Shown one piece after another: positions 2,108 through 55,835 of a stretch of DNA of 64,000 bases. Source of the DNA: Shouchella clausii (GTDB lineage Bacteria; Bacillota; Bacilli; Bacillales; Bacillaceae_D). Numbering within the stretch: the first letter of the stretch is position 1; the number at the start of each line of letters is the position of its first letter. Both the position numbers and the translations under genes were made by a program. Location of the stretch: positions 4,154,001 through 4,218,000 of the forward strand of contig NZ_CP019985.1 of NCBI RefSeq assembly GCF_002250115.1, given 5' to 3'. Below the pieces are notes generated by a model. It did not search any database. It had not been told where the DNA came from and saw only the letters and a program-made list of their open reading frames with translations.

Positions 2108-2364
2108 ATAAAAAAACTCCTCCCTAGAAAGAAGGGACGAGATGTCTGTTCACGCGGTACCACCCTCATTATGGCGCGATTTTAGCGCCACCACTTTCAT
2201 ACCTTTAACGCAGGAAAATACGGTGGGTTTTGCCCACAGCTCCAGAATAGCGTTCCGCATCTCTTCGCCAGCGCTTTTTTCAGCCAAGAAAGCGCTTCTC
2301 TTTAGACGGGCTGACACGTACTCGTTCTATCAACGCAATAACCGTTTTCCGGTATATCTTTTTC
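2108..2364 (-). promoter_or_regulatory. T-box riboswitch of alaS with leader terminator
   Basis: The canonical T-box sequence AGGGTGGTACCGCG is read on the minus strand at 2166-2153. It is followed by a terminator hairpin at 2141-2114 with one internal mismatch and a run of seven T. Upstream, the specifier context GGAAC-GCT-ATTCTGGAG places a GCT (Ala) codon at 2251-2249, which agrees with alaS as the target. By family knowledge, uncharged tRNA-Ala pairs with the specifier and with the TGGT bulge and favours read-through into alaS. The specifier call is from pattern match, not folding. Confidence 0.93.
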
Positions 2365-13684: not shown

Positions 13685-13842
13685 TTCTTATCCAGAGAGA
13701 TGGAGGGATTTGGCCCTTTGAAGTCTCAGCAACCGGCCTTTGGCAATGGTGCTAATTCCAATAGGTAATGTACCTAGGAGATAAGAAGTTCGTTGTCTAT
13801 AGTACGAGGACCTTCTTTATTCTAGAAGGTCCTTTATTATTT
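13685..13842 (+). promoter_or_regulatory. SAM-I riboswitch (S-box) of the methionine synthase-like gene
   Basis: The P1 strands TTCTTATC (13685-13692) and GATAAGAA (13780-13787) enclose the conserved S-box core: GAGGGATTTGGCCC, TGAAGTCTCAGCAACC and GGTGCTAATTCC. A terminator follows at 13808-13832 (9-bp stem GGACCTTCT/AGAAGGTCC, then a T-rich tail). High S-adenosylmethionine should favour termination and lower expression of the gene at 13920. Confidence 0.95.
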
Positions 13843-15390: not shown

Positions 15391-15609
15391 AAAAAAGCAC
15401 CCACCAGGGTGCTTCATCGTCACAATTATCCCGACTATGCCGTAAGAACTTGGTGCTTTGAACCTGCAAGGCAGGTGGGTGCTTCGCATTGGCCTTTTTA
15501 CGTCCCCAGCTTGCGGGGCATGTAAGCGAGCCAATAACGGCAAGCTCCCTTTTTTAAGGTGTTGGCTCAAAGTAAACAATTCTTACGAACATCTCAGGAT
15601 AATGTTTAT
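15391..15609 (-). ncRNA. bsrA: 6S RNA (bsrA-type)
   Basis: A strong promoter drives a transcript of about 219 bases on the minus strand that folds as a long imperfect rod. The 5' segment ATTATCC pairs with GGATAAT near the 3' end, GTAAGAA with TTCTTAC, and CTTTGA with TCAAAG. The apical part holds nested pairs including TTGGC/GCCAA and CCCC/GGGG around CAAGCT. An intrinsic terminator (AAGCACCC/GGGTGCTT, then six T) ends it. The CCTGAGATGTT start and the GAGCCAACACC and GGGAGCTTG blocks resemble Firmicutes 6S RNA as I recall it, and the place between tcdA and aspS is where B. subtilis carries bsrA. 6S RNA mimics an open promoter and binds sigma-A RNA polymerase. Start and end are inferred from promoter and terminator. 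Confidence 0.8.
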
Positions 15610-17326: not shown

Positions 17327-17472
17327 AAAAAACCCCTTTTCAGATAAGAAAAGGGGTTCGCCTCACTTATCTTTCAGAACAAAAGCTGCTCTGCTGAATG
17401 TAGCACCGTGGTTTACAAATAAACTGGTTGCCGGGCTTCATTGGGTCAGGTCCCTCCGCCACTCTTGATAAG
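17327..17472 (-). promoter_or_regulatory. SAM-I riboswitch (S-box) of hom with terminator
   Basis: P1 strands CTTATC at 17472-17467 and GATAAG at 17371-17366 enclose GGAGGGACCTGACCC, AATGAAGCCCGGCAACC and CGGTGCTACATTC, the S-box core. The terminator hairpin is AACCCCTTTT/AAAAGGGGTT (17358-17331) followed by T residues. SAM binding should stop transcription before hom. Confidence 0.95.
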
Positions 17473-17498
17473 TTCTTATTCATTTTTATATTAGGCAC

Positions 17499-20598: not shown

Positions 20599-20943
20599 AA
20601 AAAAACTCCCGTCCCAGATGATCCGATCATCTGGGACGGGAGCATATCCCGTGGTACCACCCAAATTGAGGCATAAAGCCCCCACTTTTGTCTGTTAACG
20701 CCAGCTACGCCCTTTCCTACTAAACCAGTGGTTGTTCAGAAAGGATCCTCAAAGGTGTTCATTCGTTACGGTAGAAGAGGCCGCTTTCAGCCTAGGCGGC
20801 CCTCTCTTTGCATCTATTGCCCTTAACTACTATGCCTTATCATTGGTTTTAACCCATTTTTCAATTGTGATGTTAACAAAACAGCAGCCGTTTAGTGCCG
20901 CCCTTTTTGTGCACTTATATGCTTCAACAATAACTCTAAGATG
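20599..20943 (-). promoter_or_regulatory. T-box riboswitch of hisS-aspS with a long 5' extension
   Basis: The T-box core GGGTGGTACCACGG is at 20662-20649. A very stable terminator with a 17-bp stem (20642-20606) and seven T follows. The context GAA-CAC-CTTTGAGG gives a likely CAC (His) specifier at 20757-20755. Stem I distal pairs GAGGGCCGC and GCGGCCTCTT are visible. From the predicted start at 20943 to the specifier is about 186 bases, clearly more than in the alaS leader; about 100 of these lie upstream of Stem I. Confidence 0.9.
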
Positions 20944-55175: not shown

Positions 55176-55308
55176 ACGTCCCCTTCTACTCACAATTTCC
55201 CTGCATATCTTTTCAATTGTACCACACTGTTATGCCGTTTTCATAACGGAATCAGGATGTCTTTTTTTCGTGCTTGTACCTAATTTATTTGCTTTTCTGA
55301 AAAAAGCC

Positions 55309-55337
55309 TTTACAGTTTTGTCAACAACGAATATAAT
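55309..55337 (+). promoter_or_regulatory. Promoter of the small-peptide/yrzI locus
   Basis: TTTACA at 55309-55314, 17-bp spacer, perfect TATAAT at 55332-55337. Start expected near 55344, about 33 bases before the first short ORF. Confidence 0.75.
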
Positions 55338-55376
55338 AGAAAAGGTGTTCAATCAAACGCAAAGGAGATGAACAAA

Positions 55377-55466
55377 ATGACAACAATCATGCCATTAACC
55401 ATTCAACTGCATCGTTCTTTTTGTTCACCCACTATGTGCGTTTTTGCATTGGCTTCAACAGTTTGA
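55377..55466 (+). CDS. Possible 29-residue leader peptide
   Basis: AAAGGAGATGAACAAA precedes the ATG and the frame ends with TGA at 55464-55466. The peptide begins MTTIMPLTIQLHRSF and ends in a short hydrophobic stretch (CVFALASTV); it has two cysteines. A 10-bp palindrome GCTTATAAGC starts immediately after its stop, then two terminator hairpins. The layout is that of a leader peptide with attenuation, or of a small toxic or regulatory peptide. The sequence matches no family I know. Confidence 0.55.
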   Translation: MTTIMPLTIQLHRSFCSPTMCVFALASTV

Positions 55467-55480
55467 GCTTATAAGCAATC

Positions 55481-55504
55481 GCAGGGTGATAGCCCTGCTT
55501 TTTT
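55481..55504 (+). terminator. First internal terminator of the small-peptide locus
   Basis: GCAGGG, loop TGATAG, CCCTGC, then six T. It lies 14 bases after the stop of the 29-residue ORF. Confidence 0.75.
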
Positions 55505-55506
55505 GA

Positions 55507-55533
55507 CTGCAGGGAGACATCTGCGGTTTTTTT
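55507..55533 (+). terminator. Second internal terminator of the small-peptide locus
   Basis: CTGCAG, 8-base loop, CTGCGG (one G-T pair), then seven T, directly after the first. The GCAGGG of this hairpin repeats that of the first, so alternative pairing between the two is possible. Confidence 0.6.
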
Positions 55534-55571
55534 GTGGGCAAAAGCTGGGAAAAATTGAGAGGGGGATAAAA

Positions 55572-55649
55572 ATGTATGGTTTGTTCCAAAAACTAGGAAA
55601 AAACACAAAGCAATCGATTTTAAATAAGCAGGTGCCAGGTTCTACCTAA
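55572..55649 (+). CDS. Possible 25-residue basic peptide upstream of yrzI
   Basis: GAGAGGGGGATAAAA precedes the ATG; stop TAA at 55647-55649. The peptide (MYGLFQKLGKNTKQSILNKQ onward) is soluble and basic with no recognised motif. It has a strong ribosome site and lies 36 bases before yrzI, so a short translated ORF in the same mRNA is plausible. In B. subtilis the yrzI mRNA also carries several cryptic short ORFs; no sequence match to those is claimed. Confidence 0.5.
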   Translation: MYGLFQKLGKNTKQSILNKQVPGST

Positions 55650-55685
55650 TGACTGCACCTTCAGAGGAAGGAGGCGATTTCGTAG

Positions 55686-55835
55686 ATGACGTTTTCATTT
55701 ATTTTTTTTACGATAAGCATTAAAAAGCGCAAGCGCCCGGAGTATTCCCGCGCCGAACTAGAAGCTTTTATCCATGCCGAAAAAATGGAGCAGGAATACG
55801 AACAGCTAAAAACACGCTATTTGCATCACCTTTAA
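55686..55835 (+). CDS. yrzI: YrzI-family small protein
   Basis: A 49-residue protein with a hydrophobic N-terminus and basic turn (MTFSFIFFTISIKKRKRPEY) followed by a charged helix (AFIHAEKMEQEYEQLKTRYL). This is the YrzI family pattern. GGAAGGAGG precedes the ATG at a slightly long distance. In B. subtilis, YrzI is part of a short polycistronic mRNA whose decay is started by the ribosome-dependent nuclease Rae1 within a tiny ORF; a toxic effect of such peptides has been discussed. Too short for routine ORF calling. Confidence 0.72.
   Translation: MTFSFIFFTISIKKRKRPEYSRAELEAFIHAEKMEQEYEQLKTRYLHHL

Follow-up and report, generated by a model that had tools for sequence, protein, structure and literature searches.

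The bmrB leader of the B. subtilis bmrCD genes is described as a short translated ORF combined with alternative stem-loops and an intrinsic terminator, induced by protein-synthesis antibiotics (PMC4191407), and the yrzI leader analysed here can be likened to it in these respects. Compared by layout, the terminator of bmrB lies inside its coding sequence, whereas in the yrzI leader two hairpins follow the first short ORF (ORF1) and the ribosome site of ORF1 would itself be a strand of the switch. In E. coli, the short toiL uORF of topAI senses ribosomes held at its start codon by tetracycline or retapamulin and alters the pairing downstream, acting on the topAI ribosome site and via Rho (PMC12121999). 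The yrzI leader differs from toiL in using candidate intrinsic terminators. Transcription and translation attenuation have both been reported within the single leader of vmlR of B. subtilis (PMC9226507), a different gene that is likened to yrzI by description.

A fusion of yrzI to luciferase is listed in a review table as a B. subtilis reporter for protein-synthesis inhibition (PMC7604286), and a mechanism for this use was not found in the literature passages on yrzI. The mRNA of yrzI rises together with that of bmrCD in two published data sets: upon depletion of RNase P or Z, where the rise on depletion of tRNA maturases is discussed as a stability effect (PMC10100781), and, with bmrBCD, in a whiA mutant (PMC10714963). 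The 5′ untranslated region of yrzI in B. licheniformis is given as 301 nt (PMC3871023). A description of the yrzI leader as an attenuator was not found in the literature passages that name yrzI (including PMC7317962 and PMC4634765), nor via S1026 or ncr2184; subscription papers fell mostly outside this scope, and a prior description is possible.

The window, a stretch of 64,000 nucleotides from a chromosome of the Shouchella clausii complex (G000:C1:4154001-4218000), carries a yrzI gene whose 5′ leader is probably a ribosome-sensing transcription attenuator. Every element listed by the first-pass annotation of this DNA is present, namely a promoter, the 29-codon ORF1, two adjacent terminators with a common GCAGGG, a 25-codon ORF2 and a YrzI ORF. 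The features, all on the plus strand, are as follows.

55309-55337, +, SigA-type promoter TTTACA-N17-TATAAT, matching the consensus at 11 of 12 positions
55361-55379, +, SD of ORF1 (AAAGGAG), spacer and ATG; TGAACAAAA at 55369-55377 is the predicted 5′ side of helix A
55377-55466, +, SD-preceded ORF1 of 29 codons, the proposed sensor uORF (the ORF listing starts from an ATG three codons earlier in the same frame)
55419-55430, +, anti-SD segment inside ORF1, in which TTTTGTTCA (helix A) overlaps TCACCC (helix B)
55481-55498, +, hairpin T1, -12.0 kcal/mol, from the terminator scan and folding
55480-55489, +, CGCA and GGGTGA, T1 strand forming the predicted 3′ side of helix B
55493-55498, +, CCCTGC, T1 strand forming the predicted 5′ side of helix C
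55505-55528, +, terminator T2, -11.2 kcal/mol, with GCAGGG at 55509-55514 as the predicted 3′ side of helix C
55559-55567, +, ribosome site of ORF2, GAGGGGGAT
55572-55649, +, ORF2 of 25 codons with the C-terminus QVPGST
55630-55660, +, inverted repeat AGGTGC / GCACCT around the ORF2 stop; a similar repeat is seen by eye in several other Shouchella
55658-55674, +, inverted repeat CCTTCAGAGGAAGG overlapping the yrzI SD, GGAAGGAGG
55686-55835, +, yrzI, 49 codons, PF09501
55850-55880, +, inverted repeat ACGACGTA..TACGTCGT 3′ of yrzI, seen by eye, a possible terminator common to the convergent neighbour (presumably hemY)

The palindrome noted after ORF1 in that annotation is also there, as GCTTATAAGC directly after the stop, but it is not conserved, two of the four close genomes having GCTTATGAAC.

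In the mechanism proposed, the start region of ORF1 would pair with the anti-SD (helix A) as long as no ribosome is present, upon which T1 and T2 would form and transcription would stop. A ribosome held on the ORF1 start or on its first codons would block helix A, the free anti-SD would capture T1's emerging 5′ arm and loop (helix B), and the T1 3′ arm thus freed would capture T2's 5′ arm (helix C), allowing the polymerase to read through into yrzI; in Shouchella it would pass ORF2 on the way. We infer this folding order, the direction of the response, in which a stall means ON, and the signal, which would be a slowing of ribosomes through antibiotics or a shortage of charged tRNA. The locus has two marks of an attenuator: a short putative ORF with a ribosome site upstream of a predicted intrinsic terminator, and predicted exclusive pairings that would link the position of the ribosome to that terminator, the window alone being weak for helix B.

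The yrzI locus is flanked on one side by spo0B/obg, transcribed away from it, and on the other by a convergent gene with the Pfam label Amino_oxidase, which we take to be hemY. DNA identity over 55300-55690 is 100% in genome G009 and 95% in G004 and G011. Single-locus statistics are modest: both strands of 1.8 kb contain six terminator-like sites against a shuffle mean of 2.4, and 1.8 kb around the locus contains four promoter-like sites against a mean of 2.6. The global fold of 357 nt is not unusually stable (z -1.18). No Rfam family reaches its gathering score at the locus, where a search up to E 1 gave NsiR4 as the sole match (E 0.15, opposite strand, below its gathering score). Elsewhere in the window, Rfam places two T-box leaders, two SAM riboswitches and 6S RNA (2130-2342 (-), 20629-20852 (-), 13685-13787 (+), 17364-17474 (-) and 15424-15603 (-)). 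It is the recurrence in other genera that lifts the yrzI leader above chance.

The window's YrzI scores 52.9 bits against PF09501 (cut-off 23, E 4e-14), which places it in that family, and 38.3 bits against the NCBIfam YrzI paralog model TIGR02413, below the cut-off of 47.05. Of 397 genomes sampled from the order, 155 have YrzI, as do 26 of 299 of the class; a protein query at E 0.1 detected it in 35 of 100 relatives, own genome included. A home-made profile recognized yrzI in 123 of the 124 loci given to it (L081 was missed), and removal of identical upstream regions left 116 loci. An SD-preceded ORF1 of 18-45 codons is present in 104 of these; the 12 loci without ORF1 by the criteria used include L001 and L033, and in L033 an ORF with a weak SD is visible by eye. 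L001 (G000:C1:4237260-4237406) is a second yrzI of the same genome, 71% identical and 27.6 kb away, which by these criteria has neither ORF1 nor twin hairpins.

With one locus per genus, ORF1 is found in 49 genera, so that the leader is not special to this lineage and is, judged by its sequence, broadly conserved among relatives. In raw counts, made without a shuffle baseline, 48 of the 49 genera have a promoter matching at least 9 of 12 positions, with the end of its -10 box 32-45 nt before the ORF1 ATG, and terminator-like hairpins before yrzI number at least two in 44 genera, one in four and zero in one. Terminator detection is uneven within Shouchella, where ten distinct loci gave two hairpins in four cases, one in two and none in four. 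In the Shouchella loci L018, L021 and L022, T1 and T2 seem to have become a single long hairpin that has one U tract, a remark based on inspection of L018 and L022 by eye; the terminator scan found none in all three. A pattern search for the commonest form of the leader matched 29 of 199 genomes, as compared with 2 of 199 for the reversed control pattern, and among five matches inspected four precede YrzI-type ORFs while the fifth, L187, is not leader-like; leaders of this form may also exist before other genes. In L185 and L186, from a genus that is not among the YrzI positives of the order survey, a leader-like element is followed by a tiny ORF ending in KKWVP and then by YrzI-like ORFs. The B. 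subtilis yrzI operon carries a gene of the same family, and L106, presumed to belong to the B. subtilis group, has ORF1 and hairpins of the same leader; it adjoins a PF01226 gene, as yrzI adjoins yrhG.

The helix A duplex, between the SD/start region of ORF1 and the rest of ORF1, reaches -12 kcal/mol or lower in 103 of 104 loci. In the window it joins 55369-55377 to 55419-55427 and is lengthened by AAACGCA pairing with TGCGTTT. It scores above 95% of codon shuffles in 53 of 85 non-redundant loci, but above 95% of swapped partners in only 26 of 85, and a class-aware version of the swap test gave 9 of 77. The weakness of the swap tests is explained in part by the words GGTCGAA/TTCGACC, which most loci have in common. 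After these weak swap tests a permutation test was adopted, in which the first-listed locus of each genus (or family) was used and the summed pairing score was permuted 2000 times. Coevolution of helix A then gave z 5.9 per genus (N 49) and z 5.0 per family (N 27), none of the 2000 permutations reaching the observed sum. The words involved vary by clade yet remain complementary, as in GGTCGAATG/CATTCGACC, TGAACAAAA/TTTTGTTCA (the window), AGGCTGAA/TTCAGCCT and GGTTGAAC/GTTCAACC.

For helix B, the anti-SD has a mean score of 15.3 with the 5′ arm and loop of its own T1, 12.4 with swapped and 11.5 with shuffled partners. In the shuffle test, p was ≤0.05 in 22 of 59 loci and ≤0.01 in 8 of 59, compared with 1 and 0 of 59 for the T2 loop as internal control; the locus-wise comparison with swaps is weak: at 5%, 6 of 59 loci pass, and the T2 control passes in 4 of 59. 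Permutation gave z 6.7 per genus (N 46) and z 3.7 per family (N 26), with 0 of 2000 permutations in each case, and both controls stayed at chance (anti-SD with the T2 loop, z -1.0 per genus and -1.2 per family; SD with the T1 loop, -0.7 and -0.5). With the SD free, folding predicted on average 2.15 B pairs and 7.72 A pairs in 46 genera. Hiding the SD, by masking the RNA upstream of +17 as under a ribosome on the ORF1 start, raised the number of expected B pairs in 44 of the 46 genera, the gain being one pair or more in 39. The mean was then 9.35 with the own T1 versus 5.30 with a swapped one, own being higher in 38 of 46 genera, although at least three B pairs were expected in 41 of 46 with the own T1 and also in 37 of 46 with swapped T1 halves. 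These counts include L025, L147 and L152, in which A and B are both about zero and the anti-SD is probably mis-placed, as well as L094, L127, L145 and L162, in which B is high even when the SD is free. In the window, TCACCC (55425-55430) would pair with GGGTGA (55484-55489), giving six plus four pairs in all, and the own T1 does no better than swapped ones (6.9 versus 7.7 expected pairs).

A mutually exclusive pairing of the two hairpins, which was to be looked for at this locus, is predicted: the 3′ arm of T1 is complementary to the 5′ arm of T2, in the window as CCCTGC (55493-55498) with GCAGGG (55509-55514). This helix C coevolves across genera with z 7.6 (N 46) and across families with z 5.4 (N 26), again with 0 of 2000 permutations, and in 53 of 64 loci it does better than the median of the swapped pairs; common descent of both hairpins could instead account for the signal. 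In folds of the growing RNA of this locus, helix B is part of the minimum-energy structure at the stage at which T1 has emerged with its 5′ arm but still lacks the 3′ arm. When both hairpins have been completed, the minimum-energy fold retains them even with the ORF1 start hidden; a longer RNA, to 55571, refolds with C present and A absent. As equilibrium folding keeps both terminators, read-through would need kinetic trapping, and kinetic switching is what classical attenuators use. Taken together, the predicted parts and the coevolution of helices A, B and C across genera point to an attenuator of a known kind with a new layout, one that is well supported by cross-genus coevolution and weak in the window alone.

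Several features of ORF1 fit translation without a conserved peptide. Met is found at codons 2-6 in frame 50 times in 410 codons (82 loci), as compared with 8 and 4 times out of frame; alternative starts may contribute to this excess. Along ORF1, the +1 frame is open in 1 of 49 genera and the +2 frame in 9 of 49, and the distance from the end of the anti-SD to the ORF1 stop is tight, with a median of 18 nt (a value of 791 arose from a search error). Sensing of methionine by the Met-rich start of ORF1 was considered and rejected, in-frame Met fitting translation or alternative starts and singling out no signal. The conservation by codon substitution pattern for which both short ORFs were to be examined is absent from ORF1 and present at the end of ORF2. 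Between the two pairs into which the four close genomes fall, ORF1 has two base differences, one synonymous and one Arg/His, while in ORF2 eight codons differ, with six amino acid changes, none of them in the last nine codons. A search of 60 relatives with the ORF1 peptide gave strong matches only in four S. clausii-complex genomes, the next having E 0.05; a DNA match in G010 proved to be the start of an unrelated gene. The ORF1 peptide differs among genera, and TTCGACC encodes H-S-T in some of them but falls within I-R-P in others, which argues that the RNA pairing is kept and not the peptide. The suggestion that the first short ORF decides termination before yrzI probably stands, by way of the exclusive pairings that coevolution and folding indicate, but its description as peptide-controlled has to be dropped.

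ORF2 presents a different picture. In an unfiltered list of SD-preceded ORFs, those that end 25-45 nt before yrzI in the bacterial family of the window have a G-x-T end in 20 of 22 loci (the exceptions are L025 and L034); the ORF2 of the window is absent from this list because its SD is G-rich. A C-terminal pattern collected 27 distinct ORF2s: 15 with V-K-G, one with E-K-G, one with E-E-G, nine with V-P-G and one with V-L-G. V, G and T are in that pattern and hence invariant by construction, which makes the unfiltered list the better evidence; W and Y, outside the pattern, are present in all 15 V-K-G copies. Synonymous variation is seen in the codons for Tyr, Gly, Leu and Glu, with each of the four Gly codons in use among the ten Shouchella copies, and this speaks for selection on the peptide. 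In 25 copies GTG is the only Val codon and ACC the only Thr codon, and as the same bases form an inverted repeat, selection on RNA at the ORF2 end is indicated as well. The C-terminus thus looks conserved as a peptide too. The ORF2 flank can pair with the yrzI ribosome site in the window, and ORF2 of Shouchella and relatives is probably a second, peptide-dependent layer of control on that site. L012, L017, L025, L026, L034 and L157 each have two yrzI copies, and it is the second that ORF2 precedes; the position of ORF2 before a single yrzI in Shouchella may therefore have arisen when the first copy was lost.

The same parts could be read in other ways. ORF1, T1 and T2 might constitute an independent small RNA or mRNA whose hairpins are ordinary fail-safe terminators. 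The pairings would then serve an RNA that acts in trans, or would control nothing but ORF1 translation, and yrzI would be transcribed through leaky terminators or from a promoter of its own. Such an RNA would agree with the persistence of T1 and T2 in the minimum-energy fold in the window and with a 234-nt RNA of B. subtilis that is encoded between yrzI and yrhG and co-precipitates with Hfq (PMC3574147). It is nevertheless unlikely, as the T1 loop coevolves with the anti-SD and the T2 loop does not, a scan of the window found no promoter-like site on the plus strand between T2 and yrzI, and in 28 of 48 genera the last hairpin ends at most 60 nt before the first yrzI, which leaves scant room for an additional promoter. 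Helix B might also be a loop contact compatible with T1, in which case a finished T1 would free the ORF1 ribosome site and the leader would time ORF1 translation instead of termination. Although the complementary bases are mostly in the T1 loop in several loci, such as L100 and L020, we consider this improbable: in L158, L112 and L144 helix B reaches inner bases of the T1 5′ arm and should clash with the stem, and helix C would be left without a role.

The first-pass annotation had further linked the locus to Rae1, and its uORFs might set mRNA decay, not termination, if translation of ORF1 or ORF2 triggered cleavage by this enzyme. Leroy is said to have described the B. subtilis yrzI operon, S1024-S1026, as a Rae1 substrate in 2017. 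A Rae1 target of the S1025 type is a translated ORF that is cleaved just upstream of a Lys codon. The genome of the window encodes a Rae1 (NYN_YacP) homologue, PF05991, and V-K-G is found in the ORF2 of many relatives. In L106, yrzI is followed by a 17-codon ORF, MFKMELLMHYTMEKDQV, whose length and E-K pair fit S1025; from this, S1025 is most likely the 17-codon ORF after yrzI and not ORF1 or ORF2. The operon of B. subtilis would differ in this from the uORFs treated here, and the upstream leader would be separate from the Rae1 site, which makes the link doubtful. A 17-codon ORF, MLRMELLMHYTIEKDQV, also follows yrzI in L073 and is likewise a probable S1025, and the ORFs after yrzI in L188 and L189 end in ALWVEKDSA and ALWVEKDTA; the post-yrzI ORFs suggest that such micro-ORFs form a family sharing the core E-K-D. 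Levels of yrzI and S1024-S1026 do rise in a rae1 mutant (PMC10632193), and S1026, a different segment, is placed upstream of yrzI in a published table (PMC3498285). In all ten Shouchella ORF2s, the window included, which make up the nine V-P-G copies and the V-L-G copy, Lys is replaced by Pro (nine) or Leu (one), and cleavage by Rae1 would leave the coevolution of A, B and C unexplained. Among the readings set out, control by Rae1 is the one we hold to be the least probable.

In conclusion, a ribosome-sensing attenuator upstream of yrzI remains the preferred reading. More tentatively, the attenuator may be order-wide and sense the initiating ribosome itself, the ribosome site of the uORF being part of a three-helix domino by which occupancy of the start, through any drug or codon, would lead to read-through of the twin terminators; Shouchella and its kin would have added, as an arrest-type gate, a second uORF whose peptide is conserved at the C-terminus. 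What the layout would add to the known attenuators is that the uORF's own ribosome site is the switch. Such a leader could explain why yrzI reports translation stress, and its retention in dozens of genera offers a concrete, testable mechanism for the response of yrzI to protein-synthesis inhibition. The conserved leader also suggests that the YrzI micropeptides belong to the general translation-stress response.
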